Assembly: GCF_001043115.1 (NCBI RefSeq)
Contig: NZ_LFME01000037.1
Location: 1 to 46,101, forward strand
DNA length: 46,101 nucleotides
Direction of reading: 5' to 3'
Origin: Xanthomonas sp. NCPPB 1128
GTDB taxonomy: Bacteria; Pseudomonadota; Gammaproteobacteria; Xanthomonadales; Xanthomonadaceae
Part shown: positions 14,416-28,891 of the stretch, piece after piece
Layout: every line of letters starts with the position of its first letter
Numbering within the stretch: position 1 is the first letter of the stretch
Notes under the pieces: generated by a model
The model's input: only the letters and a program-made list of their open reading frames with translations
Told to the model about the DNA's origin: nothing
Database searches by the model: none
Position numbers and translations under genes: made by a program

Positions 14416-16197
14416 ATGCGACCCATCCCCCGTCTCGCCATCGTCCTGTCCCTGCTCTCCCTGGCCGGCCTCGCCGAGGCCCGCGGCGTTATCGAAAAGG
14501 TACAGATCCAGGGTCTGAACAAGGACGACGACGCGGCGATGATCGAGAACATCCAGGTCTCGCTGTCGCTGTACGACGCCATCGGCAAGGACCAGGGCGA
14601 GTCGCGCCTGGAGTACCTGCTGAGCCAGGCCGAACGGCAGACCCGGCAGGCGCTGGAGCCGTTCGGCTACTTCACCCCCACCATCACCGTCGAGGCGCCG
14701 CGCCAGGACGACAAAGTGACCGTGGTAGTGCACGTGGACAAGGGCGAGCCGATCCGGGTGCGCAATTTCCATGTGGGCATCACCGGCCCGGCCGAGGACG
14801 ACCGCTACCTGGGCGACGACCTGAAGAACTTCCGCCCGCGCAAGGGCGATATCTTCGTCAGCAGCGTCTACGAGACCAGCAAGGTCACCATCACCCGGCG
14901 CCTGGCCGAGCGCGGCTACTTCGATGCCGACTTCACCCAGCGCAAGGTCGAGGTCACCCGCGCCGACCACGCCGCCGACATCGACCTGAGCTGGGACAGC
15001 GGCCGCCGCTACAACATGGGCCCGATCCGCTTCCACCAGGACTACTTCAACCAGAAGCTGTTCGATCCGCTGGTGTACTGGAAGGAAGGCAGCTACTACC
15101 ACGAGGGCAAGCTCGACCGTCTGCGCGAGTCGCTGGTCAAGCTCGACTACTTCAGCGTGATCGACATACAGCCCAAGCCGGAGGAGGCCGACGCCAACGG
15201 CGACGTGCCGGTGGACGTCAACCTCACCCGCGCCAAGCGCAGCATCTACACCGCCGGCCTCAGCTACGGTAGCGAGAGCGGCGCCGGCGTGCGCCTGGGC
15301 GTGGACCGCCGCTACGTCAATGCGCGCGGGCACAAGCTCAGCACGCAGCTGGACTACGCGCAGAAGCGCAAGAGTTTCATCACCAGCTACCGGATCCCGG
15401 CGTTCCGCTGGCTCGACGGCTGGTACACCACCTCGCTGCGCGTCTACGACGAGCAGACCGATTACATCGACCTGCGCAACGTCAAGCTCACCGGCAGCCG
15501 CAGCGGGCAGATCAACGAGCACTGGACCGCGATCGCCTCGATCAATGCGCTGCGCGAACGCTGGCGCTACGCCACCGACGAGGTGTTCGACGGCGCGCTG
15601 TACCAGACCTCGACGCTGTTCTATCCGCAGATCGAAGCGGACTACGTCGGCGTCGACGACAAGGTGTTCCCGCGCAAGGGCTTCAGCGGCAACATCAGCC
15701 TGCGCGGCGGCGCCGAGGGCGTGGGCTCGGATGCCAGCTTCGTGCAGGCACACATGCGGGTGAACTGGTTCCACGGCATCGGCGACAACGATCGCCTGAT
15801 CCTGCGCGGCGAAGCCGGCAGCACCTGGACCGACGCCCTGGTGGCGATGCCGCCGAGCCTGCGCTTCTTCGCCGGCGGCGACAACAGCATCCGCGGCTAT
15901 GCCTTCCGCGAAGTCGGCCCGCGCACGCCGCGGCCGGATCGTTTCGCGCTCGGCGCCAAGCATGTGCTCACCGGCAGCGCCGAGTACGAGCATTACTTCA
16001 AGGGCGGTCCGTGGGGCGGTGCGGTGTTCGTCGATAGCGGCAGCGCCTTCGACGACACCCCGGACTGGCACACCGGCGTCGGCTTCGGCCTGCGCTGGCG
16101 CTCGCCGGTGGGCCCGGTGCGGGTCGACATCGCCCATGGCTTGAACGATCCCGACTCGCAGTTCCAGCTCTATCTCAACATCGGAGCCAACCTGTGA
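14416..16197 (+). CDS. tamA: Translocation and assembly module protein TamA
   Basis: 593 residues, an Omp85-family outer-membrane protein. ATG 14416 gives a signal peptide (RLAIVLSLLSLAGLAEARG). Three POTRA-like domains fill about residues 22-265 (for example RQALEPFGYFTPTITVE and RRLAERGYFDADFTQRKVEV). The C-terminal barrel contains the conserved lid-loop motif SIRGYAFREVGP near residue 495 and ends in a beta-signal (FQLYLNIGANL). With TamB it forms an envelope-spanning system implicated in outer-membrane protein assembly and lipid transport. Its stop overlaps the tamB start (GTGA), showing coupled translation. Confidence 0.96.
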   Translation: MRPIPRLAIVLSLLSLAGLAEARGVIEKVQIQGLNKDDDAAMIENIQVSLSLYDAIGKDQGESRLEYLLSQAERQTRQALEPFGYFTPTITVEAPRQDDKVTVVVHVDKGEPIRVRNFHVGITGPAEDDRYLGDDLKNFRPRKGDIFVSSVYETSKVTITRRLAERGYFDADFTQRKVEVTRADHAADIDLSWDSGRRYNMGPIRFHQDYFNQKLFDPLVYWKEGSYYHEGKLDRLRESLVKLDYFSVIDIQPKPEEADANGDVPVDVNLTRAKRSIYTAGLSYGSESGAGVRLGVDRRYVNARGHKLSTQLDYAQKRKSFITSYRIPAFRWLDGWYTTSLRVYDEQTDYIDLRNVKLTGSRSGQINEHWTAIASINALRERWRYATDEVFDGALYQTSTLFYPQIEADYVGVDDKVFPRKGFSGNISLRGGAEGVGSDASFVQAHMRVNWFHGIGDNDRLILRGEAGSTWTDALVAMPPSLRFFAGGDNSIRGYAFREVGPRTPRPDRFALGAKHVLTGSAEYEHYFKGGPWGGAVFVDSGSAFDDTPDWHTGVGFGLRWRSPVGPVRVDIAHGLNDPDSQFQLYLNIGANL

Positions 16198-19100
16198 GCG
16201 CGCCGCTGGAGCCGACGTCGCCCGCCGCGCCGCCGCCGCGGCGCCCCCGCTTTTACCGGCGCAAGCGCTTCTGGTGGGGCTCGGCGCTGACCATTGCTGG
16301 CCTGGTGCTGCTGACGGTGATTGCGCTGTACTGGCTGCTGCAGACCGTGGCCGGGCGCGACGTGCTGCTGGCGCAGGTGGTGGCGCGGCTGCCGGCCGGC
16401 TCCACCCTGACCTGGGAGCGAGCCGAAGGGCCGCTGGCCGGGCCACTGATCCTGCACAACCTGGATTTCCGCTACAACGAAATCCACTTCACCGCCGAAC
16501 GCGCCTACCTGGATCCGGACATCCGCCCGCTGCTCGGGCGCAAGCTGCAACTGGACGCGCTGGAGCTGACCAACGCCACGCTCAACCTGGCCAAGAGCGA
16601 CGAACCGTTCGAGTTGCCGCGCTGGCCGCAGTCGCTGCCGCAGATCGAAGTGCCGCTGGCCCTGCAGGCCGATCGCATCGCCATCGACGGCCTGCGTATC
16701 ACCCAGGCGCAGCAGCCGATGATCGACATCCGCACGCTGCGCGGTGGCGTGGAAGTGGCAAACGGCGAGTTCCGTGCCACTCAGGTGGTGGTGAACAGCG
16801 ACCGCGGCGATTTCCGCGTCAACGGCGACTACCTGCCGGGCCAAGACTACACCGCCGACCTCACCGCCAGCGCGGTGCTGCCGGCCGCGCGCGGCCGCAC
16901 CCCGGCGCGCCTGGGCCTGGTCGCGCGCGGCGACCTGGACAAGATGGAAGTGGCCATCGCCGGCAATGCACCGGCGCCGCTGCGCGTGACCCTGGTGTTC
17001 ACCGGCCGCACCGATCCGGTGTGGGAGTTCGCCGCCAGCAGCAAGGCGCTGGATCCGTCGCTGCTGGTGCCGCCGGCCGACGACGCGCCGGCAGCGGTGC
17101 CACTGGCGTTCGACCTGCGTGCGAACGGCAAGGGCGGCAATGCCGATCTGCAGGGCGAGCTGTCGCGCGACGGGCAAAAGCTCGTGCTCGATCCCTCGCA
17201 CCTGAGCCTGGACAACCAGGTACTCACTGTCGCGCCGCTGCAACTGCGCGCCTTCGACGGGCAACTGCGCCTGCGTGGCACGGCCGATCTGCGCGACCCG
17301 AATAACACGCAGCTGCGCTTCGCGGTCAACGCCAGCGGCATGAGCTTCGCTACCGCGCCGGATCCGTCCACCCCGGACGCGCCGGCGGTGCCGATCAAGC
17401 TGGTCGAGGCCAATCTGGGCGTGGCCGGCACGCTGAAGCAATGGGCCACCTACGGCGAGGCCACCGTCGCCCGCGGCAAGGACAGCGCCAAGTTGCAGCT
17501 GGACGTGCGCGGCGACGATCGCCAGGCGCAGCTGAAGCAGGTGCGCGCGACCATGCCCAGCGGCACCCTCGACCTGGGCGGCAACGTGGCCTGGGTGCCC
17601 GAGTTGAACTGGGACGTGCAAGGCACGCTGGCCGGCTTCGACCCCGGCTACTTCGCACCGGGCTGGGACGGCAAGCTGTCCGGCACCTTCGCCTCGCAGG
17701 GCAAGCAGTTGCCGGCGCGGCCGGACGGAAGCGCCGCCGGTTACCAGGCCACGCTCGATATCCCGGGCTTGAACGGACGCCTGCGCAGTCGCCCGCTCGA
17801 CGCCAATGCCAAGCTCGCCCTGCAGGGCAGCCAGGGCGAGGGCAAGCTGCAACTGAGCCTGGGCGATAGCCGCCTGCAGGCGCAGGGCAAGGTCGGCGAC
17901 CAGCTCGACGTGGACGCGCAACTGCAGCCGCTGCAACTGGCCGACCTGCTGCCCGGCGGCGCCGGCAGCCTGCGCGGCAGCGTGCAGATCAAGGGCCGCC
18001 GCGACGCCCCCGACCTCACCGCCGACCTCACCGGCAGCGGCCTGAAGTGGGACAGCTACAGCGCCGACAGCGTCAGCCTGCGCGGGCGCCTGCCCTGGCG
18101 CGGCAACGGCGGCGAACTCGCCCTGCGCGGCAGCGCGATCAACGCCGGCGTGCTGCTGCAGACGCTGAGCGTGGACGCGCGCGGCGCGGTCGAGAACCTG
18201 CAGCTCGATGCCAAGACCGAGAACGACATGGGCGCGCTGGCCCTGGCCGGGCAGGTGCGCCGCAACGGCACACGCTGGCAGGGCGCCTTGAACACGCTGC
18301 GCATCGCACCGGCCAAGGGCGAACCATGGCAGCTGCGGCAGGCGGCCAATTTCAGCGTGGCCGGCAGTGCTTTCAGCCTGTCCGAGAGCTGCCTGGCTCC
18401 GAGCAGTGGCGGCGCCTTGTGCGTGTCTGCCGACTGGCCGAAGCAGGGCCTGACCCTGCGCGGCGACGCCTTGCCGCTGGCCCTGGTGCAGCCATGGCTG
18501 CCGCCCAGCAACGGCCGCAAGATGTACCTGCGCGGCGACCTGTCCATCGACGGCAGCTTCAAGCCAGCCGGCAACGCCTGGCAGGGTTCGCTGCGCCTGG
18601 CCTCGCGCGAAGGCGGCTTGCGCCTGGGTGACAACGCGCGCGGCGAACTGCTGCGCTACGACCAGTTCAGTTTCGTCACCGACTTCAGCGCCCAGCACAT
18701 CCACTCCAAGCTCGGCGTCGGCTTCCAGGGCGACGGCTTCGTCGACGCCACCGTCGACACCGGCTGGGATGCGTACGCGCCGCTGACCGGCGAGATCTAC
18801 ATGAACATGGCGCGGCTGTACTGGCTGGAGCTGTTCTCGCCCGATCTGGTGCGGCCCAAGGGCCTGGTCGAAGGCCACGTCAGCTTGCGCGGCACCCGCT
18901 CGCAGCCGGCGATGGGCGGCGATGCCACACTGAGCAACTTCACCGGCGAACTGCCGGCGCTGGGCCTGACCCTGAGCGAAGGCAAGGGCCGCTTCGACGC
19001 GCAGCCGGACGGCTCGGCGCGCATCGTCGCCTCGGTCAAGTCCGGCGAAGGCACGCTCAACGTCGACGGCGGCCTATCTTGGTACGGCGACCGCACGCCG

Positions 19101-20033
19101 CTGCAGTTGAACATCCGCGGCACCAACGTGCTGGTGTCCAACACCGCCGAACTGCGCGCCGTGGCCAATCCCGACCTGCAGTTCGGCATCGCCAACAAGA
19201 CCATGATGCTGAGCGGCCAGGTCACCGTGCCCTCGGCCGACATCGACCTGGAACGGCTGGACCGCGGCACCTCGCTGTCCGAGGACGTGGTGGTGCTGGA
19301 CCCGGCCGACCCCGAGGCCACGCCGACCTCGCCGCTGGAGATGGACCTGCGGGTGACCCTGGGCGACCAGGTCAAGATGGCCGGTTTCGGCCTCAAGGGC
19401 GCGCTGACCGGCGCCATGCAGGTGCGCTCGCGGCCGGGCCGCGAAACCACCGCCACCGGTGGGCTGGACGTCAGCGGCAAGTACAAGGCGTACGGCCAGG
19501 ACCTGACCATCACCCGCGGCCAGCTCACCTGGAGCAACAACATCGTCTCCGACCCGCGCATCAACATCCGCGCGCAGCGTCAGGTCGGCGACGTCACCGC
19601 CGGCATCGACGTCACCGGCCGCGCCACCGCCCCGCATGCGGACGTGTGGTCGGACCCGTCGATGTCGCAATCCGAAGCGATGTCCTACCTGGTGCTGGGC
19701 CGCAGCCTCAGCAACACCAGCAGCGCCGAAGCCGACCAGGTCACCGCCGCGGCCAGCGCCCTGTCGGCCGGCAGCGGCCTGCTCGCCTCGCAACTCGGCG
19801 CCAGGCTCGGCTTCGACGACGCCGGCGTCAGCCAGTCGCGCACCCTCGGCGGTTCGGTGGTGGGCTTCGGCAAATACCTCTCGCCGAAACTCTACGTCAG
19901 CTACGGCGTGTCGCTGATCGGCAGCGGCTCGGTCCTGACGCTGAAATATCTGCTGGGCCACGGCTTTGATGCCGAGGTGGAATCGAGCACGGTGGAGAAC
20001 CGTGGGTCGGTGAATTGGCGGAAGGAGAAGTAG
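16194..20033 (+). CDS. tamB: Translocation and assembly module protein TamB (AsmA-like)
   Basis: 1279 residues from GTG 16194, overlapping the tamA stop. A Pro/Arg-rich cytoplasmic N-terminus is followed by one membrane anchor at about 30-52 (ALTIAGLVLLTVIALYWLL). A very long beta-rich periplasmic region follows, and the C-terminal DUF490/TamB domain ends in SQSEAMSYLVLGRSL, LGFDDAGVSQSRTLGGSVVG and FGKYLSPKLYVSYGVSLIG. TamB forms a hydrophobic groove from inner to outer membrane and works with TamA; AsmA-like relatives carry phospholipids. The length is typical. Base composition is like the flanking chromosome, in contrast to the AT-richer island that starts about 50 bases later. Confidence 0.96.
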   Translation: MSAPLEPTSPAAPPPRRPRFYRRKRFWWGSALTIAGLVLLTVIALYWLLQTVAGRDVLLAQVVARLPAGSTLTWERAEGPLAGPLILHNLDFRYNEIHFTAERAYLDPDIRPLLGRKLQLDALELTNATLNLAKSDEPFELPRWPQSLPQIEVPLALQADRIAIDGLRITQAQQPMIDIRTLRGGVEVANGEFRATQVVVNSDRGDFRVNGDYLPGQDYTADLTASAVLPAARGRTPARLGLVARGDLDKMEVAIAGNAPAPLRVTLVFTGRTDPVWEFAASSKALDPSLLVPPADDAPAAVPLAFDLRANGKGGNADLQGELSRDGQKLVLDPSHLSLDNQVLTVAPLQLRAFDGQLRLRGTADLRDPNNTQLRFAVNASGMSFATAPDPSTPDAPAVPIKLVEANLGVAGTLKQWATYGEATVARGKDSAKLQLDVRGDDRQAQLKQVRATMPSGTLDLGGNVAWVPELNWDVQGTLAGFDPGYFAPGWDGKLSGTFASQGKQLPARPDGSAAGYQATLDIPGLNGRLRSRPLDANAKLALQGSQGEGKLQLSLGDSRLQAQGKVGDQLDVDAQLQPLQLADLLPGGAGSLRGSVQIKGRRDAPDLTADLTGSGLKWDSYSADSVSLRGRLPWRGNGGELALRGSAINAGVLLQTLSVDARGAVENLQLDAKTENDMGALALAGQVRRNGTRWQGALNTLRIAPAKGEPWQLRQAANFSVAGSAFSLSESCLAPSSGGALCVSADWPKQGLTLRGDALPLALVQPWLPPSNGRKMYLRGDLSIDGSFKPAGNAWQGSLRLASREGGLRLGDNARGELLRYDQFSFVTDFSAQHIHSKLGVGFQGDGFVDATVDTGWDAYAPLTGEIYMNMARLYWLELFSPDLVRPKGLVEGHVSLRGTRSQPAMGGDATLSNFTGELPALGLTLSEGKGRFDAQPDGSARIVASVKSGEGTLNVDGGLSWYGDRTPLQLNIRGTNVLVSNTAELRAVANPDLQFGIANKTMMLSGQVTVPSADIDLERLDRGTSLSEDVVVLDPADPEATPTSPLEMDLRVTLGDQVKMAGFGLKGALTGAMQVRSRPGRETTATGGLDVSGKYKAYGQDLTITRGQLTWSNNIVSDPRINIRAQRQVGDVTAGIDVTGRATAPHADVWSDPSMSQSEAMSYLVLGRSLSNTSSAEADQVTAAASALSAGSGLLASQLGARLGFDDAGVSQSRTLGGSVVGFGKYLSPKLYVSYGVSLIGSGSVLTLKYLLGHGFDAEVESSTVENRGSVNWRKEK

Positions 20034-20140: not shown

Positions 20141-23100
20141 ATGTTCATTCATCGGCAGGGAGGGCGTAATATCGCCCTTCTTTTTTGTCTGTTTTTACTT
20201 GGCACCAAAGAAGCGCTCTCGGCAGTAACGCCAGAAGATGAATTTGTTACTCGAATTCGCAGTTCCCAAGATTTAAAGCCAATTGGGAATAGCCCGTTTG
20301 GTGAGAATGTTGATCTATATACCGGTCAGATTTCATTCCGGCAGACTGATATTGATCAGCCAGGAATTGGTTTGCCTATCCAATTGATACGCGAGCTTAG
20401 TGCCAACGACCTCGTTGATGACCGGGCTTTTGGTGATTGGTGGCTAGAGGTGCCTAGCATTCGCACAATTACTGTGCCAGAGAATGACTTCTTTAGTAAC
20501 AAGCGCTGCAGTAACTTTAGCAGGGCGCCTGATGTCTCTTTTGTTGTGCGAGAACACCATTCAAGCGTATATCTGACCGCTGATCAATGGTGGGGAGGAT
20601 ACCAGCTGGAGATACCTGGAAGTGGGCGCCAAGATTTGTTAAAGCGTGACCCCAATAATACGAATGTGCCCCAAATGATTGGAGCCGATGGCAGCAAGCT
20701 TGAGTTCCCCATTGTTACTAAAAAAAATTGGGTAGTAGCCTGCCTGCCAAATATTGCAAATGACTCAGGTGGCAATAGCTTCAGTGATAAAACTGGAGAA
20801 GGATTTTTAGTGGTCTCTCCCGAGGGGACGAAGTATTGGATGAATTGGCTTATATACCGTGAATACGCCGATGCAACACGGGGGCCTCGCAATACGGACG
20901 CGGGGAGACAGATGGCGATAATGATGGCGACTCGGGTCGAGGATCGCTATGGAAATAGTCTGTCATATGAATACGACCCCTCTGGGAATCTGACCAAGAT
21001 TCAGTCCAGCGACGGAAGGACTTTAACTTTAGCTTATGAAAGCTGGGACGGATGGCAGAGAAATCTTACATCAAAGTCTAAAAATAGCAGGGTTATTTCT
21101 GCAACCATTCAGGCTTCGGATGCTCCATCAAGAACATGGAGATACGCGTATAGCACTGATTCAGAAAATCCCGGGTCCTTAATTTCAGTCACCTTGCCAG
21201 ATCAAACATTCTGGAGCATCAGTGCTCCTAATTCAGCTTATAATCCTTTTATAACCCATGGACTAGGGTCTAAATGGGGGTCTTACTCTGCATATAGCTT
21301 GGATGACTGCGCTTCTTCTTTCTCCAAATCCTCAGATACTTTCGAAGTAGTCATCCGCCACCCCACTGGGCTCGTCGGCACTTTTACTATTGGATCGCTT
21401 GTTAGAGGTCGATCCTATGTTCCCTTTGATTGTGGAAAACAATATCAAGACAGCAAGTTCAACTACGTAAAAATAAGAAATTTGTATAACGTTCTAGACT
21501 TGGTTGCTAAAAAAATGTCCGGGCCTGGCGTCAACGAACAACAGTGGATTTATCGCTATTCTGACCCCGGGAATAGCTGGAGTAAGGACTGTAGCGCTGG
21601 TTGCACGGATACAGTGTGGACAGATGTGAAGCAGCCAAACGGATCAATAACGCGATATACATTTAGCAATCGTTACGATTCTACGGAGAGTCTTCTTCTG
21701 AAATATGAGACATATTCAGGTGACGTGGGCTCAGCCCTGGCTCGCTCTGAAAAATACGCATATGCTAGACCAAACTCCGGTCCTTGGCCGAATGTCGCCG
21801 GCGATACGTTTCTCGAAAATATCAATAAAGAACAAGTCACATCTATATCTCCTCGCTTGGAGAGGGAAATATTTCAAGATGGCGACTTGTACTACTATTC
21901 CGTTGAGAAATTTGATAATTTGGCCCGGCCGATCTCGTTCACTCGTACAAGTCCTTGGACTAGCCGTAGCGATAATATTGACTACATGGACAGTCGCTCT
22001 AAATGGGTGCTGGGCCAGCTAGAAAAAGAAGTCAATATTAATACGGGCATAATAGAATCAGAGTTTGAGTACGATGCAGAGACGGCAAATTTAATTAAAA
22101 AATATAGCTACGGAAAATTGCAGAAGTCATTTAGTTACAACCCAGACGGCACTATGGCGACAGTTTCTGACGCGAATGGAAATGTTACAAGGTTCGCTAA
22201 CTGGAAGCGAGGCACGCCGCAAGCAGTAACTTTTGCGGACAATTCTTCAGTTGCGCTTAAAGTCAACGATGATGGTTGGATTACGGCAAGGTCGGATGAA
22301 AACGGCTACATCACTAGCTATTCATACGACATAATGGGGAGGATGGCAGGTACGTCATATCCTACAAATGATAATGTCACTTGGAGTGCTACAAGTCGAT
22401 TGATTGAACAAGTTAATGCCAGTGAATATGGTCTGGCGGCCGGTCATTGGCGGCAAACAATAACCACCGGGAATGCGAGAAGAGAAATCTATCTCGATGC
22501 ATTCTGGCGGCCGGTCTTGACGAGAGAATACGATGCTACCGACATTGCATCGACCCAGCGATTTCAGCGATTTGCCTACGACAGCGATGGTAGGCAGATT
22601 TTCGCTTCTTATGTTGGTGCCTCGGACAATTTGACCACGGGAAAATGGACAAGCTATGACGTACTCGGTCGGCCAGTTTCCGTTTCGCAAAATTCCGAGC
22701 AGGGGTTGCTTACAACGCTGACGGAATACTTGCAGGGAAATAAGACGCGGGTGACAGATCCGCGTGGTAACCAGACGGTGACCGGCTACCAAGTCTTCGA
22801 CCAACCTGACTACACGAAGCCCGTTTGGATCCAACATCCCGAAGGGGCCTACACCGACATCAACCGGGACATCTTCGGCAAGCCGCTCTCCATCCGCCGC
22901 CACGACGCCAACGGCGCCGTGGCGGTTACGCGCAGCTACGTCTACGACACCTATCGGCAACTGTGCAAGACAGTGGAACCGGAAACCGGTGCCACCGCCA
23001 ATGGCTACGACGCTGCCGGCAATCTGGTGTGGAGTGCGGCGGGCTTGGCGTTGCCCAGCACTACATCGTGCGATGCGGATTCCGCCTTCGCCTCCGGCCG

Positions 23101-24412
23101 CCGGGTCGATCGCAGCTACGACGTGCGCAACCGGATCAGGGCGCTGAGCTTCCCGGATGGCAACGGCAACCAGGCCTGGAGCTATTGGCCGGATGGGGCG
23201 GTCAAGCAGATCACCACCACCAATAACGGCGTCGCCACTTACAATAGCTACGCCTACAATAAGCGCCGCCTGCTTATTGCGGAAAGCCAGGGCCAGGCCG
23301 ATGGCGAGACCTGGGCGCTGGGCTACGCCTATGATGCCAATGGCAATCTTGCCGCGCACCGGTATCCATCGGGACAGATGGTGGATTACGCGCCCAATGC
23401 CCTGGGCCAACCGACGCAGGCGGGCAGCTACGTCACTGGCGTAAGCTACTATCCAAACGGCGCGATCAAGCAGTTCACCTACGGCAACGGCATCGTCCAC
23501 ACCATGACGCAGAACGCGCGTCAGTTGCCGGATACCAGCCGTGATGCCTACGGTGATATCGCGCTCCTCAGCGACGGCTACGACTACGACGCCAACGGCA
23601 ACGTCGCCGGGATCAGTGACGGCGCCACCGGTCGTGGTGGGCGCGGCAATCGCGACATGACCTACGACGGGTTGGATCGCTTGACTTCCACCAAGTCTGC
23701 GATGTTCGGTTCCACGCCTGCAAGCTACAGCTACGACGTCCTCGACAACCTGATCCACGTCGTCGCGCCGGGCCGTGATCACTATTACTGCTACGACGCA
23801 AACTGGCAGCTCACCAACGTCAAGACCGGCAGTTGCGGCGGCAGCACGGTCATCGGCATGAGCTATGACTCGCAAGGCAACCTCAGCAACAAGAATGGCC
23901 AGGCCTTCGTGTTCGATTACGGCAACCGCCTGCGCCAGGCGACCGGCAAGGAGACCTATCGCTACGACGGCAACGGCCGCCGCACGTTGGCGCTGCAGAG
24001 CGCCGGCAACATCGGCTCGCTGTACGACCAGTCTGGGGCACTGCGCTTCCAGAAGAATCAGCGCCAGTCCAAGTCCACCGACTACATCCTACTGGGCGGC
24101 AGCCTGGTTGCCGAAGCCGACTGGCCGCTGGGTCAACTTGCTTCAGTCAAGGACTACGTGAACTGGAACCCGGTCTCCGGCGCGACCCGCTATGTGGTGG
24201 AAGAGAGCGTGGATGGTGTCACCTGGACCTCGGTGTATGACGGCAGCCAGGGCAACTGGACCTCGTTGGCCAGGCCGGCAGGGACCTATTCGTATCGCGT
24301 GACTGCATGCACGGCGGACGGCAACTGCACCGCGGCTTCGAACGTGACGCATGACCAGCGGCCAGCAGTGGATATCGTGCCATTGCTGTATCAGCTGCTG
24401 TTGAATGGTTGA
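20141..24412 (+). CDS. Secreted YD/RHS-repeat protein lacking the RHS core; C-terminal Fn3-like end
   Basis: 1423 residues from ATG 20141 (AAAGGGG just upstream). A signal peptide (IALLFCLFLLGTKEALSA) leads to an N-terminal beta-rich region like those of long RHS proteins (SPFGENVDLYTGQISFRQTD). YD repeats run from about residue 265 to 1335 (SYEYDPSGNLTKI, YAYDANGNLAAHRYPSG, YRYDGNGRRT). The chain reaches TDYILLGGSLVAEADWP, the segment that normally precedes the RHS-associated core, and then switches to an Fn3-like domain (about 1338-1405, WNPVSGATRYVVEESVDGV) and stops. The core sits in a separate gene at 25316. Composition changes inside the gene near 22,750: by hand count 20281-20340 is 42% G+C and 23641-23700 is 60%. 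Probably an exported shell or carrier; function inferred. Confidence 0.9.
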   Translation: MFIHRQGGRNIALLFCLFLLGTKEALSAVTPEDEFVTRIRSSQDLKPIGNSPFGENVDLYTGQISFRQTDIDQPGIGLPIQLIRELSANDLVDDRAFGDWWLEVPSIRTITVPENDFFSNKRCSNFSRAPDVSFVVREHHSSVYLTADQWWGGYQLEIPGSGRQDLLKRDPNNTNVPQMIGADGSKLEFPIVTKKNWVVACLPNIANDSGGNSFSDKTGEGFLVVSPEGTKYWMNWLIYREYADATRGPRNTDAGRQMAIMMATRVEDRYGNSLSYEYDPSGNLTKIQSSDGRTLTLAYESWDGWQRNLTSKSKNSRVISATIQASDAPSRTWRYAYSTDSENPGSLISVTLPDQTFWSISAPNSAYNPFITHGLGSKWGSYSAYSLDDCASSFSKSSDTFEVVIRHPTGLVGTFTIGSLVRGRSYVPFDCGKQYQDSKFNYVKIRNLYNVLDLVAKKMSGPGVNEQQWIYRYSDPGNSWSKDCSAGCTDTVWTDVKQPNGSITRYTFSNRYDSTESLLLKYETYSGDVGSALARSEKYAYARPNSGPWPNVAGDTFLENINKEQVTSISPRLEREIFQDGDLYYYSVEKFDNLARPISFTRTSPWTSRSDNIDYMDSRSKWVLGQLEKEVNINTGIIESEFEYDAETANLIKKYSYGKLQKSFSYNPDGTMATVSDANGNVTRFANWKRGTPQAVTFADNSSVALKVNDDGWITARSDENGYITSYSYDIMGRMAGTSYPTNDNVTWSATSRLIEQVNASEYGLAAGHWRQTITTGNARREIYLDAFWRPVLTREYDATDIASTQRFQRFAYDSDGRQIFASYVGASDNLTTGKWTSYDVLGRPVSVSQNSEQGLLTTLTEYLQGNKTRVTDPRGNQTVTGYQVFDQPDYTKPVWIQHPEGAYTDINRDIFGKPLSIRRHDANGAVAVTRSYVYDTYRQLCKTVEPETGATANGYDAAGNLVWSAAGLALPSTTSCDADSAFASGRRVDRSYDVRNRIRALSFPDGNGNQAWSYWPDGAVKQITTTNNGVATYNSYAYNKRRLLIAESQGQADGETWALGYAYDANGNLAAHRYPSGQMVDYAPNALGQPTQAGSYVTGVSYYPNGAIKQFTYGNGIVHTMTQNARQLPDTSRDAYGDIALLSDGYDYDANGNVAGISDGATGRGGRGNRDMTYDGLDRLTSTKSAMFGSTPASYSYDVLDNLIHVVAPGRDHYYCYDANWQLTNVKTGSCGGSTVIGMSYDSQGNLSNKNGQAFVFDYGNRLRQATGKETYRYDGNGRRTLALQSAGNIGSLYDQSGALRFQKNQRQSKSTDYILLGGSLVAEADWPLGQLASVKDYVNWNPVSGATRYVVEESVDGVTWTSVYDGSQGNWTSLARPAGTYSYRVTACTADGNCTAASNVTHDQRPAVDIVPLLYQLLLNG

Positions 24413-24476
24413 AGGTCGCGGTGCCGAAAGAACAGCATCCGCAAAATAATCTTTAATTTTCCGGGATGGAATTTTT

Positions 24477-24794
24477 ATGCGTTGGATATTGATGTTGGCA
24501 TGTGCGCTGTTCTGGATGTCTTACAGCGATTCGGCGAGTGCCTTGCAATTCATCACGGGCAAGGTAACGCAGATCGAGGCAACCTACATGCCTACCCAAA
24601 TCCCTTTTCTCTTGAGCGAAGGAAACACCACATGCCCCGCCGGAAAGCCGGTTTATTGGGCAAAGGACCAGGAGAACAACAAGGCGATCTACGCAATGTT
24701 GATGTCGGCATTCGTCAGTGGGAAGCGTGTGACCTTGATCATGGACGACAACGATACGTCGTGTACCGGAAAATTCATCTATATGGTTGATTGA
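24477..24794 (+). CDS. Small secreted two-cysteine protein A of the RHS locus
   Basis: 105 residues from ATG 24477. The signal peptide is about 1-22 (WILMLACALFWMSYSDSASA). The mature part is about 83 residues: strands, then NTTCPAGKPVYW, a helix KAIYAMLMSAFVSGKR, the strand VTLIMDD, and a second Cys in DTSCTGKFIYMVD. It has exactly two cysteines after the signal, so one disulfide is likely. The order strand, helix, strand, Cys resembles OB-fold B subunits of AB5-type toxins (a short helix before a VRI-like strand), but similarity is only at pattern level. It is paralogous to the next gene and lies 64 bases after the RHS-repeat gene, probably in the same operon. No function is known to me. 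Confidence 0.8.
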   Translation: MRWILMLACALFWMSYSDSASALQFITGKVTQIEATYMPTQIPFLLSEGNTTCPAGKPVYWAKDQENNKAIYAMLMSAFVSGKRVTLIMDDNDTSCTGKFIYMVD

Positions 24795-24862
24795 ACTGGT
24801 CAAGGTGCAAACGAGCCAGCCATCCGGAAAACACGACCATTAACGAAAGAGAAGAAAGAGCC

Positions 24863-25171
24863 ATGAGAACTACATGGGCAGCGCTGTTACTGTTTGCCAG
24901 TCTGAGCGGATCAGCATCAGCAAACGAATCGATGCAAAACGTCGACGTCGTGCAGGTGGGTACCTATCAGGCCCATGCCGACCATTTTGTCTGGCTGTCA
25001 GATACACCAGCAGAATGCAAGGCCACATCCGGAAACCACGTCCTGCATTTTCAAGAAGAACAACCCGGCGGTAAGGCGCTGCTGGCCGTTTTGATGACGG
25101 CATTGGTGAACAAGCGCAAGATCGATGTTCAGACCAATGGCTGCGACATCGTCGAGGTTTACTTGAAGTAA
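24863..25171 (+). CDS. Small secreted two-cysteine protein B of the RHS locus
   Basis: 102 residues from ATG 24863, preceded by a purine-rich GAAGAAAGAG. The signal peptide is about 1-20 (ALLLFASLSGSASA). The mature chain shares the layout of protein A: a Cys in PAECKATSGN, a helix KALLAVLMTALVNKRK, the strand IDVQ, then a second Cys in TNGCDIVEVYLK. Sequence identity with protein A is low outside the helix (AxLMxAxVxxKR), so these are old paralogues or two subunits of one complex. The pair between two RHS parts suggests a binding, adaptor or delivery role in the same exported system; this is inference. The G+C content is intermediate between chromosome and island. Confidence 0.8.
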   Translation: MRTTWAALLLFASLSGSASANESMQNVDVVQVGTYQAHADHFVWLSDTPAECKATSGNHVLHFQEEQPGGKALLAVLMTALVNKRKIDVQTNGCDIVEVYLK

Positions 25172-25315
25172 GCCTGCTATGGCGGAGTCTGCATGCAGAT
25201 TTCGTTGGGTGCGTTGCACCGTAATGTTGCTAGGGGAAGCGCTGTCGATCCGACTTCCATGATAAAAGTCGACTCTACATCGCGCATCTATGGTTCCAAC
25301 TCGCAAGGACGAGTG

Positions 25316-26218
25316 ATGTCAAATTTCCACAGGACTTGTGCAGCAATACGCCTTATGGCTCTAGCTGTTCTTTCATTGCTCATTGCATTCGGTGCCTCGG
25401 CGCAAACGGTCCGGTACATCCATACGGATAGATTGGGATCCGTTGTGCTCATTACGGATAAGGATCGAAATGTTGTTGGCAGAAATGAGTATGAACCATA
25501 TGGAAGCTTGCTGAACCATCCGGCGACAGACTCTCCGGGTTACACAGGGCACGTCATGGATGTTGCGACTGGGCTGACGTATATGCAGCAAAGATATTAC
25601 GATCAGGGGCTCGGGCGATTTCTCTCCGTAGACCAAGTCACGCCCTATGAATCAAATGTCAGAAATTTTAATAGATACGTTTACGTAGCAAATAATCCGT
25701 ATCTACTCAAAGATCCGGATGGGCGTCAATGGGAATGTGACGGCAAGATATGCCATTTCCATGGGACGGTAGGCGAAGTTGTGTTTAAGGATTTGCCTGA
25801 ATATGTTCTAATGAACATGGCGATGGACTTAATAGGTAGCGTCGCTAATTTCACAAATACAATTCAGAGGGCGCATGATCTTATACAGAATAGTGAAGGG
25901 GATTCGTCTGGAAATGAGGGTCAGCAAGGAGTAAGAGAGCTAGGGGATTTGGAACCAACACACGCGCCTGACCATCCGCAAAATGACCCTGCTATCCCTG
26001 GGCTTTCCGATGAAGAGCTTCGTAATGCTATAAATAACCCTAAAAATGGAGATGCGGTAACTGTACGTGGAAATACAGTTCTTGATGGAAATACCCGCAT
26101 AAATGAGGCAAAGTCTCGCGGCTGGCCTGATAACACTCTAATTCCAGTAGATGAGCTTCCAGAGAGGCCGGATAATGTAGATGATGACCCCCTGGGGCCC
26201 TATGGAGACATGTGGTGA
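25316..26218 (+). CDS. Separate RHS core protein with ParB-like putative toxin C-terminus
   Basis: 300 residues from ATG 25316 (AAGGA upstream). It has its own signal peptide (MALAVLSLLIAFGASAQ, to residue 30) and then begins directly with the RHS-associated core: YIHTDRLGSVVLITD (34-48), RNEYEPYGSL (56-65), YTGHVMDVATGLTYMQQRYY (76-95), DQGLGRFLSVDQ (96-107), YVYVANNPYLLKDPDGR (121-137). This is precisely the part missing from the 20141 gene. After a variable linker (about 140-225) the end has the ParB/Srx-like pattern LSDEELRNAINNP, VRGNTVLDGNTRINEAKSRG (DGNTR 257-261) and TLIPVDEL (274-281). ParB-like domains are known among polymorphic toxin tips. Low G+C (25861-25920 is 45%) fits a swapped toxin cassette. 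Alternative: an inactive core remnant. Confidence 0.85.
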   Translation: MSNFHRTCAAIRLMALAVLSLLIAFGASAQTVRYIHTDRLGSVVLITDKDRNVVGRNEYEPYGSLLNHPATDSPGYTGHVMDVATGLTYMQQRYYDQGLGRFLSVDQVTPYESNVRNFNRYVYVANNPYLLKDPDGRQWECDGKICHFHGTVGEVVFKDLPEYVLMNMAMDLIGSVANFTNTIQRAHDLIQNSEGDSSGNEGQQGVRELGDLEPTHAPDHPQNDPAIPGLSDEELRNAINNPKNGDAVTVRGNTVLDGNTRINEAKSRGWPDNTLIPVDELPERPDNVDDDPLGPYGDMW

Positions 26219-26496
26219 AAGAGAATATCGACGTTGATATTAATGCGGTTTTGCATTTTATGCTTGGCGCGGCACTTATCGAAATTAGAGCTTCAAACTC
26301 AATGGGGTTTATAAAAAAGATGGCCGATATTTTCCATAATTTGCCGTTTGCACTGTCTAAATATTCAACTGCGGAAGAATATGATGCTTGTCTGGCCGAA
26401 CTGATGAATAGGGCGCGGCGTTTTGAAATGGAGAATTATGTCGAAAAGTTGCAAATAGCCGCTATTCGGGCCGTCCAAAGAAAAGCTAATATATGA
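26215..26496 (+). CDS. Candidate immunity protein of the RHS core-toxin gene
   Basis: 93 residues from GTG 26215, whose start overlaps the stop of the RHS core gene as GTGA; GGAG at 26204-26207 precedes it. A GTG at 26212 would add one residue. The protein has no signal peptide, is predicted mostly helical (INAVLHFMLGAALIEIRAS, AEEYDACLAELMNRARRFEM) and is soluble and small. I do not recognise its family. A small cytoplasmic protein tightly coupled behind a polymorphic toxin tip, with the same low G+C, is the usual position of the immunity protein; the role is inferred from position only. Confidence 0.75.
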   Translation: MKENIDVDINAVLHFMLGAALIEIRASNSMGFIKKMADIFHNLPFALSKYSTAEEYDACLAELMNRARRFEMENYVEKLQIAAIRAVQRKANI

Positions 26497-26743: not shown

Positions 26744-28891
26744 ATGCACTTGCCCAACTCCCTTGCCGCCTCACTGACACTAAGTCTCGCCCTCACCGCC
26801 AATGCCCAAGCCGACGAAGGCATGTGGATGCCATCGCAGATGCCGGAGCTGGCCAAGCCGCTGCATGAGGCAGGCTTCCAGGGCGATCCACAAACGCTGG
26901 CCGATGTAACCCAGCCGCCGTTGAGTGCGGTGGTGAAGGTCGGAGGCGGGACCGGGGCGTTCGTGTCCGGGGATGGGTTGTTGTTGACCAATCACCATGT
27001 CGCCTATGGGGTGATCCAGTACAACACCTCGGCGAAGGAGAACCCGATCGAGAACGGGTTCATCGCGCGGGACCGCGGCGACGAGCGCGCGGCCAATCCA
27101 GACTTCCGGGTGCTGGTGACGGTGGGCTTCGACAAGGTCACCGATCAGGTGCTGGGGTCGGCCAAGGGCAAGACCGGGCGCGCCTACTACGATGCGGTGG
27201 ATGCGGCGAGCAAGCGCATCGTCGCCGACTGCGAGCGCGAGGCCGGGGTGCGCTGCAGCGTTGCCAACATGTATTACGGCACGGACTTCTACCGGATCCG
27301 TCAGCTGGAGTTGCGCGATGTGCGCCTGGTGTATGCGCCGCCGCGGGCGATCGGCAACTACGGCGACGAAATCGACAACTTCATGTGGCCGCGGCACAGC
27401 GGCGATTTCACCTTGCTGCGCGCCTACGTGGGCAAGGACGGCAAGCCGGCGGACTACAGCGCTGACAACGTGCCCTACCAGCCGCCGGCGCATCTGCAGA
27501 TCGCCACCGATGGGCCGAAGGCCGGTGACTTCGCGATGCTGGCCGGTTACCCCGGCATCACCTATCGGCATCGCACGGCGGCCGAGTTCGCCGAGCAGGT
27601 GGAGGCGACGCTGCCGCAGCGGGTGGCGGTGCTGGACCAGTTGATCGAGGTGATCGAAGCATCGGGCAAGGCCGACGCGGAAGCACGCACGCGCTACGCC
27701 TCGCAATTGCAGTCGCTGAAGAACAACCGCAAGCGCGCCGCAGGCGAACTGGAAGGGCTGCAGCGCAGCGATGCAGTGCGGCTGCGCGCCGACGACGAGC
27801 GCGGCATGCTCGCGGCCACCCACGGCAGCGATGCGCGCGACATCGCCGCGCTGCAAAAGCTGCTCGGCCAGGCCTCGGCGCTGCGCGAGCGCGATCTGCT
27901 GCTGGGGTTGATCGCCACGCAGACTCAGGCGCTGCGGTCGGCGCTCACGCTGGAGCGGCTGCGACTGGAGGCGGCAAAGCCGGACGATCGGCGCGAGAGC
28001 GGCTACCAGCAGCGCGACCTGGCGCTGATCGAGGGCATGCTCAAGCAGGTGCAGCGGCGGTATTCGCCGACCGTGGAGAAGGCGCTGCTGACGACGCTGC
28101 TGACCCGCTACCAGCAACTGCCGGATGCCCAGCGGGTGCCGGAGTTCGATGCGGCGTTCGGGCGGACCCCGGCGCAATTGCAGGCGGCGCTCGACAAGGC
28201 CTACGCCGGCACCGCGCTGGGCACCGAGGCCGAGCGCCTGTCGCGCTTCGCCGCCGCGCGCGAGGGCAAAGTGCCTGCGGCCGATCCGTTGCTGGCGCTG
28301 GCCGCCACGTTGGTGCCGGCGCAGCTGCGGCTGGACGACGAGCGCAAGGCGCGCGAAGGTGAGCAGTTGCGGCTGCGCCCGGCCTACATGCGTGCGCTGT
28401 TCGCCTGGCGCAAGCAGCAGGGGCGTGCCGTGTATCCGGACGCCAACAGCACGCTGCGGATCAGCTATGGCCGCGTCGAGCCGCTGGCGCCGCGCGATGC
28501 GGTCAGCTTCGCGCCGCTGACCACGGTCGCCGGCATCGTCGAGAAGAACACCGGCAAGGAGCCGTTCGATGCGCCCAAGCCGCTGCTGGCGGCGATCGCG
28601 AAGGGCGACTTCGGCAGCACGGTCGATCCACAGTCGAATACGCAGCCGGTGAACTTCCTGACCAACCTGGACACCACCGGCGGCAATTCCGGCTCGCCGG
28701 TGCTCAATGCGCGCGGCGAGTTGATCGGGCTGAACTTCGACAGCAACTGGGAAGCGGTCAGCGCCAGCTGGTGGTACGACCCGCGCTACAAGCGCGCGAT
28801 CCATGTGGACATGCGCTACCTGCGCTGGCTGATGGCCAAGGTGTACCCGGCGCCGCAACTGCTGAAGGAGTTGAATGTTCCGCAGGAGTGA
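26744..28891 (+). CDS. S46-family dipeptidyl peptidase (DPP7/DPP11-like)
   Basis: 715 residues from ATG 26744; no good Shine-Dalgarno is visible. The signal peptide ends at about residue 22 (ALTANAQADEG), then DEGMWMPSQMP, the family's mature start. The chymotrypsin-like triad is readable: His in LLTNHHVAYG (84/85), Asp in NYGDEIDNFMWPRHSGDF (208/211) and Ser649 in TTGGNSGSPVLN. A helical domain (about 290-540) caps the active site in this family. These periplasmic serine peptidases remove dipeptides from N-termini and are used by Xanthomonadaceae to live on peptides. Whether it prefers hydrophobic (DPP7) or acidic (DPP11) residues I cannot settle by eye. Normal chromosomal composition resumes here. 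Confidence 0.95.
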   Translation: MHLPNSLAASLTLSLALTANAQADEGMWMPSQMPELAKPLHEAGFQGDPQTLADVTQPPLSAVVKVGGGTGAFVSGDGLLLTNHHVAYGVIQYNTSAKENPIENGFIARDRGDERAANPDFRVLVTVGFDKVTDQVLGSAKGKTGRAYYDAVDAASKRIVADCEREAGVRCSVANMYYGTDFYRIRQLELRDVRLVYAPPRAIGNYGDEIDNFMWPRHSGDFTLLRAYVGKDGKPADYSADNVPYQPPAHLQIATDGPKAGDFAMLAGYPGITYRHRTAAEFAEQVEATLPQRVAVLDQLIEVIEASGKADAEARTRYASQLQSLKNNRKRAAGELEGLQRSDAVRLRADDERGMLAATHGSDARDIAALQKLLGQASALRERDLLLGLIATQTQALRSALTLERLRLEAAKPDDRRESGYQQRDLALIEGMLKQVQRRYSPTVEKALLTTLLTRYQQLPDAQRVPEFDAAFGRTPAQLQAALDKAYAGTALGTEAERLSRFAAAREGKVPAADPLLALAATLVPAQLRLDDERKAREGEQLRLRPAYMRALFAWRKQQGRAVYPDANSTLRISYGRVEPLAPRDAVSFAPLTTVAGIVEKNTGKEPFDAPKPLLAAIAKGDFGSTVDPQSNTQPVNFLTNLDTTGGNSGSPVLNARGELIGLNFDSNWEAVSASWWYDPRYKRAIHVDMRYLRWLMAKVYPAPQLLKELNVPQE

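Follow-up and report, generated by a model that had tools for sequence, protein, structure and literature searches.

The DNA analysed here, called the window below, is a 46,101-nt stretch of Xanthomonas sp. NCPPB 1128 (NZ_LFME01000037.1, positions 1 to 46,101). Five plus-strand genes, encoding proteins of 1423, 105, 102, 300 and 94 amino acids, lie in it between an S46 peptidase gene and a gene whose product we take to be TamB, a name that follows the Bcn-A paper discussed below and not a family search (Table 1). The island formed by these genes has a G+C content of 46-59%, against about 67-71% beside it (2-kb windows). Hydrophobic, signal-peptide-like leaders open the products of the first four genes; signal peptides were called throughout with a simple script and by eye. 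A known anti-phage defence system was considered and dropped, as none of the five island proteins gave a PADLOC match at E ≤ 0.01.

Table 1. Genes and features of the locus, in coordinates of the window.
Feature	Position	Strand	Basis
TamB, conserved flank outside the system; also upstream of Bcn-A	16194..20033	+	Name after PMC7259588 (seen in part)
RHS/YD-repeat shell, 1423 aa, signal-like N-terminus, no RHS core	20141..24412	+	Pfam, ORF
Fn3/Ig-like tail, where fused relatives carry the RHS core	24113..24409	+	Comparison with relatives
SM1, 105 aa, signal-like leader, weak DUF5992 match below cut-off	24477..24794	+	Pfam
SM2, 102 aa, signal-like leader, predicted OB fold like AB5-toxin B subunits	24863..25171	+	Model
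Plug-toxin gene, 300 aa: signal peptide, RHS core, variable tip	25316..26218	+	TIGR03696, alignment
Signal peptide, residues 1-29, ends ASA before QTVRYIHTD	25316..25402	+	Eye and simple script
RHS core / C-terminal plug, residues 31-137, Asp106 and Asp133 at aspartyl-protease motif places	25406..25726	+	Alignment; motif role from PMC10684867 and PMC13018210 (seen in part)
Variable tip, presumed toxin, residues 138-300	25727..26215	+	Tip comparison
Candidate immunity gene, 94 aa, GTG start, overlaps plug-toxin gene	26212..26496	+	Family analogy
S46 peptidase, conserved flank outside the system	26744..28891	+	Pfam

The largest protein, which we call the shell, matches the Pfam family RHS_repeat (PF05593, E 2.8e-30), while no core family was among its Pfam matches at E ≤ 1. 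It reaches the motif GGSLV at residue 1319 and then continues into a 99-residue tail with a weak match to the Fn3-like Pfam family ChitinaseA_N (E 0.0065, below cut-off). A PAAR or other N-terminal T6SS domain was likewise absent from its Pfam matches at E ≤ 1, the protein having a signal-like leader instead, and SpvB gave no Pfam match. The RHS core is found in the fourth gene. Its 300-residue product begins with a leader ending in ASA, followed by QTVRYIHTDRLGS, with HTD at residue 36. Residues 59-136 match TIGR03696 (Rhs_assc_core, E 2.1e-19). Solved TccC3 chains give alignments of their RHS core with residues 31-137 or 31-140 (best E 2.6e-9), which end at or slightly beyond the DPDG site. 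A preliminary description of this DNA had claimed that the repeat protein stops where an RHS core would start and bears an Fn3-like end, that the core follows directly on a signal peptide in the fourth gene, and that this gene overlaps a small one; all three points hold, the overlap with the last gene being 7 bp. The same description had seen a ParB-like domain at the end of the fourth protein. We had to give this up, as no ParB family was among the Pfam matches at E ≤ 1 and the likeness was one by eye.

Asp106 and Asp133 of the 300-residue protein fall at the positions of the aspartyl-protease motif of RHS plugs, whose two conserved Asp have a role set out in the sections of PMC10684867 and PMC13018210 available here. 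Cleavage at the DPDG site is nevertheless uncertain, because 76 of 83 cores read DPDGR at a place where the TccC3 alignments have Leu. A leader was called on 85 of the 88 stand-alone cores by the simple script; that of L113 falls slightly under the threshold and two cores of L118 are without one. These leaders differ in sequence and end within a few residues of one point before HTD. In eight comparisons of the window with its relatives, using cores beside shells, pN was 0.18-0.25 and pS 0.78-0.93 for the core, and pN 0.12-0.18 and pS 0.45-0.70 for the shell part. Both halves are under purifying selection and kept as proteins.

Where the cut lies can be read from fused relatives. In L075 and L076 the chain passes from shell residue 1324 into core residue 31/32. 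A solved teneurin-like chain (9ifo) is covered by the profile of the shell at residues 1695-2006 and by the core of our 300-residue protein at residues 2031-2143. Judged from these alignments, the two large genes of the window encode the halves of one RHS protein, cut in two where the fused relatives run on, with a leader and an Fn3-like tail added at the two sides of the cut. For a wider comparison, the best 80 of 360 matches from a scan of named genomes (75 loci) were joined to the genus set; of the 79 shells with a comparable C-terminal part, 77 were left after removal of L083 and L128, whose genomes were already counted. Counting as fused every shell that runs on into a core within 45 residues, we find 48 split shells (24 from the genus set, 24 named) and 29 fused ones (3 and 26) at the same junction. 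Every one of the 48 split shells is accompanied by a stand-alone core, which either lies downstream or overlaps the shell gene. The script found 46 of these partners, and in L067 and L071 the core starts far inside the shell gene. Small genes occupy the gap of 19 of the 46 measured split shells, and in the other 27 the core is directly next to or overlaps the shell. At E ≤ 0.01 the tails of the split shells match ChitinaseA_N in 35 of 48 cases and fn3 in 10 of 48, counts that may overlap.

These numbers also bear on the trivial explanation that a recent frameshift or deletion has cut a single RHS gene, an objection that the preliminary description had itself raised. Fused relatives do exist (29 of 77), as it would expect. 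Yet the split recurs in several genera, at one junction, with differing leaders before the cores and an Fn3-like family match in most of the tails. Moreover, a quick tree gave nine changes between the split and fused states, compared with 23.5 when labels were shuffled, and at least five of the nine are forced by well-supported branches. We give decay of one gene next to no probability, and a recent frameshift or assembly error is ruled out by the 48 of 77 split shells together with the recurrent leaders. The split is old, under purifying selection and no accident of one genome.

The shell itself can be divided further. In L049, L055, L059, L085 and L127 a cut near residue 606 divides it into two genes, and in L075-L077 a separate leader-bearing N-terminal part is followed by a C-terminal part that forms one chain with core and tip. 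Separate export of the parts, as proposed in the preliminary description, is strongly suggested because in L049, L055 and L059 the shell consists of two genes with a leader on each.

Within the genus Xanthomonas, 15 of 20 genomes carry a split-type shell, 24 shells in all, and the same 15 genomes carry the stand-alone cores found at E<1e-28, which number 35. Three stand-alone cores of the genus are damaged or incomplete (L060, L081, L082). In L081:6114-7059 and L082:5062-6006 we noticed orphan cores with metalloprotease-like tips (by eye) that are broken into two frames. G015 and G019 have no split-type shell; their cores at E<1e-28 lie in fused frames, G019 having a 438-aa fragment in addition, and weaker matches to short core frames are present in G013 and G019 (E 1e-11 to 1e-13). 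The split locus adjoins TamB in 12 of the 20 genomes, our own included, with S46 on the opposite side in 10 of these 12, and SM2 is present in the same 12. The gene order that had been expected to be conserved is so as regards these flanks and SM2, but not throughout: SM1 occurs in 4 of the 20 genomes, and gaps with small genes are the minority given above.

Several core genes can follow a single shell, four in L055 and two each in L057 and L068, and G005 combines one split shell with seven stand-alone cores, one of which is without the DPDG site. The leaders and cores of L055 are near-identical. L055:4334-18797 also contains a 100-aa copy of the 3' end of the shell before the second of the four cassettes, which gives the array the look of having grown by duplication. 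We infer that plugs may be loaded in trans onto one shell. The stand-alone cores could instead be silent cassettes that exchange tips by recombination, as has been proposed for orphan tips in other RHS and CDI systems. Tandem cores with different tips behind one shell, and the near-identity of the L055 leaders and cores, speak for such a store. The shells at these loci, however, have no core of their own, and the cores themselves bear leaders almost without exception and are under purifying selection where they lie beside shells. Silent storage is in our view quite unlikely.

Among the stand-alone cores of all loci, 35 have no split shell in the upstream DNA examined, which for 12 of them was shorter than 3.5 kb; the S. 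maltophilia-type loci L096, L119 and L123 have no shell in about 8.8 kb upstream. Such orphans would be at home in a model in which stand-alone cores are independent secreted toxins that need no shell. Against it, the stand-alone cores of the genus at E<1e-28 are restricted to the 15 genomes with split shells, and four of five genomes with orphan cores have a shell match of split-type length elsewhere, the fifth having no shell match. Furthermore, the published bacteriocin Bcn-A requires its big RHS gene, according to the sections of PMC7259588 available here. We regard independent toxins as unlikely and retain the reading of the cores as plugs of a shell.

We then compared the tips that follow the core. 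From 86 stand-alone cores, 80 usable tips were obtained, and 76 of these were followed by a frame within the set range. Where the distal tips of a pair are similar, the next gene is common to both in 16 of 29 cases, compared with 2 of 2807 pairs without similarity; for pairs alike only in the first part of the tip the figure is 0 of 14. The 16 agreeing pairs include six that stem from four near-copies of S. maltophilia type and do not count as independent. Among the 13 pairs with similar distal tips and no common next gene, 12 have tips at 27-41% identity; L069 and L072 differ in their next genes with tips 50% identical over 197 residues. L053 and L068 have the same tip behind cores that are only distant relatives (tip 88%, next gene 68%). 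The most frequent start of the next frame overlaps the stop of the core gene by 4 bases (26 of 76). Across the family, tips and downstream genes are thus exchanged together while shell and core stay constant, which is the pattern that the preliminary description had proposed to look for. A domain scan of the tips returned an HNH nuclease in one of nine core-bearing proteins (L055, E 7e-10).

The window's own tip matched that of L049 and no other, over its first part and at 27%. Homologues of the last gene were found in 4 of 297 family genomes, our own included. One of them (L163, G291) follows a fused RHS gene at a distance of about 1.3 kb and sits in a run of small frames resembling an immunity bank. 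A second match (L162) has no RHS in the stretch examined; a third (L164) is weak, contains a stop and was set aside as probably spurious. Given its position, its overlap with the core gene, its few matches and the rule seen in the family, the 94-residue product is a candidate immunity protein.

For SM2, one of the two small proteins, the model predicts an OB fold that resembles the B subunits of AB5 toxins (pertussis, LT-II, subtilase, Shiga), although other proteins score equally high in the same fold comparison (pro-protein-glutaminase 9.9, CipA 8.7, SilF 8.5). A profile search of the PDB did not connect the small proteins with AB5 B subunits at the sequence level (Shiga-like B subunit, E 1.2), and the likeness is therefore one of predicted fold, taken from one model. 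The viral fusion-protein chains that came up when a small-protein profile was searched against the PDB (best E 1.5e-4) were taken as chance matches. In Pseudoxanthomonas wuyuanensis, about six or seven such small secreted genes stand between shell and core (L084:5775-8776). Genes like SM2, at 48-49% identity, are also present at L079:4914-5225 and L080:4310-4663, with no core in the 12 kb around them.

In the class as a whole, a core match at E ≤ 1e-12 occurs in 53 of 369 genomes, our own included. Outside the family we selected 11 loci with short frames from 10 genomes. A shell-like frame without a core lies directly upstream of the stand-alone core at seven of them (L170-L173, L175-L177), and no shell was seen at the other four, which are at contig ends. 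The shells of L172 and L175 stop at the junction without an Fn3-like tail. Similar loci are accordingly present in other gammaproteobacterial families. In one of these families, L170:4012-15012 has a shell-like frame of 3666 aa between two stand-alone cores.

The RHS toxins that have been studied well consist of one chain, which encloses its own toxin. Like those of T6SS (Tse5, RhsA), WapA and the teneurin-like proteins, as far as the sources seen in part describe them, the system of the window combines a YD shell, a plug with two Asp, a variable tip and a downstream immunity-position gene; unlike them, it has plug and toxin in a separate protein with its own leader, and no PAAR. The familiar marks of an RHS toxin, YD/RHS repeats and a core with the DPxG motif, are thus present with the core on a separate gene. 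Shell, core and toxin are in separate ORFs in the window as in the 48 of 77 split relatives, and a variable tip with a linked downstream gene is seen at the level of the family. Another parallel is TcB-TcC, also an RHS cage made from two gene products, whose TccC3 fusions are the best solved matches of our core. The Tc cage is cut inside the repeats, whereas the cut in the window falls at the border of shell and plug, and its shell gave no SpvB match. No split RHS shell and plug was found in a search of literature titles and abstracts, for which subscription papers were mostly outside reach.

The locus type as such is already published as a bacteriocin. As set out in the parts of PMC7259588 used here, Bcn-A of X. 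perforans 91-118 consists of TamB, ORFA (RHS, 1398 aa), ORF2 (124 aa), ORF3 (100 aa), ORF4 (290 aa, with a signal peptide) and ORF5 (145 aa). Killing is lost in ORFA, ORF2 and ORF4 mutants and weaker in an ORF3 mutant, ORF5 gives immunity, and the activity is found in the supernatant and depends on XpsD, the type II secretin. The same parts mention only that ORF4 somewhat resembles RhsA and WapA, and describe no split RHS, plug or small-protein fold. Gene order, similar sizes, TamB upstream, the signal peptide on the fourth gene and the last gene in the immunity position all agree with the window, which has an RHS gene of about 1400 aa, two small genes and a signal-peptide gene of about 300 aa after TamB. 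The two loci differ in the last gene (145 versus 94 aa) and apparently in the tip. In addition, the bcnA product is called "devoid of a signal sequence" (PMC7259588), in contrast to the signal-like leader of the shells studied here. The genome of the window encodes a type II secretin above the curated cut-off. Xanthomonas sp. Leaf148 provides a further counterpart, with TamB, a 106-aa frame and then 1398, 123, 101, 304 and 143 aa, the 304-aa gene consisting of leader, core and tip. The printed segments of Bcn-A gave weak matches in three of 395 genomes, among them one to the tip of a core gene in G016 (E 0.0086). Together with order, sizes, signal peptide and the RhsA/WapA remark, this match suggests that ORF4 is the plug-toxin counterpart.

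By analogy, ORFA may be read as the shell, ORF4 as plug and toxin, ORF5 as immunity to the ORF4 tip, and ORF2 and ORF3 as small OB-like partners. The authors of the bacteriocin work assign the parts differently: ORFA, the big RHS protein, is the toxin, and ORF2 and ORF4, the latter being the 290-aa product of the core gene, serve delivery or processing (PMC7259588, as available here). This is their own statement, and the loss of activity upon loss of either gene agrees with it. We nevertheless consider the published assignment very unlikely, since the shells of this class-A type end in a conserved Fn3-like tail without any variable tip, while the HNH nuclease identified above resides in the tip of a core-bearing protein. 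Taken together, we put the probability that the window encodes a Bcn-A-type bacteriocin, built as a split RHS toxin, at roughly 70%; its function as a bacteriocin is argued from likeness to the published locus. Beyond that publication, what is new is the reading as shell and free plug together with its breadth, the presence of up to seven plug genes in a genome with one shell, and the OB fold predicted for SM2.

In the split RHS toxin that we favour, the parts would be exported through the inner membrane by Sec. Shell and plug would thus join outside the cytoplasm, as the preliminary description had suggested: once in the periplasm, the core would serve as C-terminal plug and close the shell, with the toxin tip inside. 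The small OB-fold proteins could join the particle and perhaps bind the target surface, and the particle would use the type II system to exit. The tip would be freed in or on a competing bacterium, possibly after cleavage at the aspartyl-protease motif of the plug, while the product of the last gene would shield the producer. With the plug encoded as a free gene, several toxins could share one shell. More tentatively, and with a probability that we place below even odds, the loci of the whole class may represent a multi-subunit secreted RHS toxin, in which any of several free plug-toxins, whether encoded nearby or at a distance, loads a reusable shell outside the cytoplasm. The particle would leave by type II secretion and, in the Bcn-A branch, be decorated for target binding by proteins like AB5 B subunits.

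If shell and plug are indeed exported apart, the toxin would be loaded into its cage after export, and one cage could serve several toxins. The toxin of a published bacteriocin locus would be reassigned from the big protein to ORF4, and ORF2 and ORF3 would gain a role that can be tested. Many short "RHS core" genes, which could otherwise be mistaken for fragments, would find an explanation. Finally, should the multi-subunit reading be true, these loci would join the RHS cage principle with AB5 subunit assembly and its export route.
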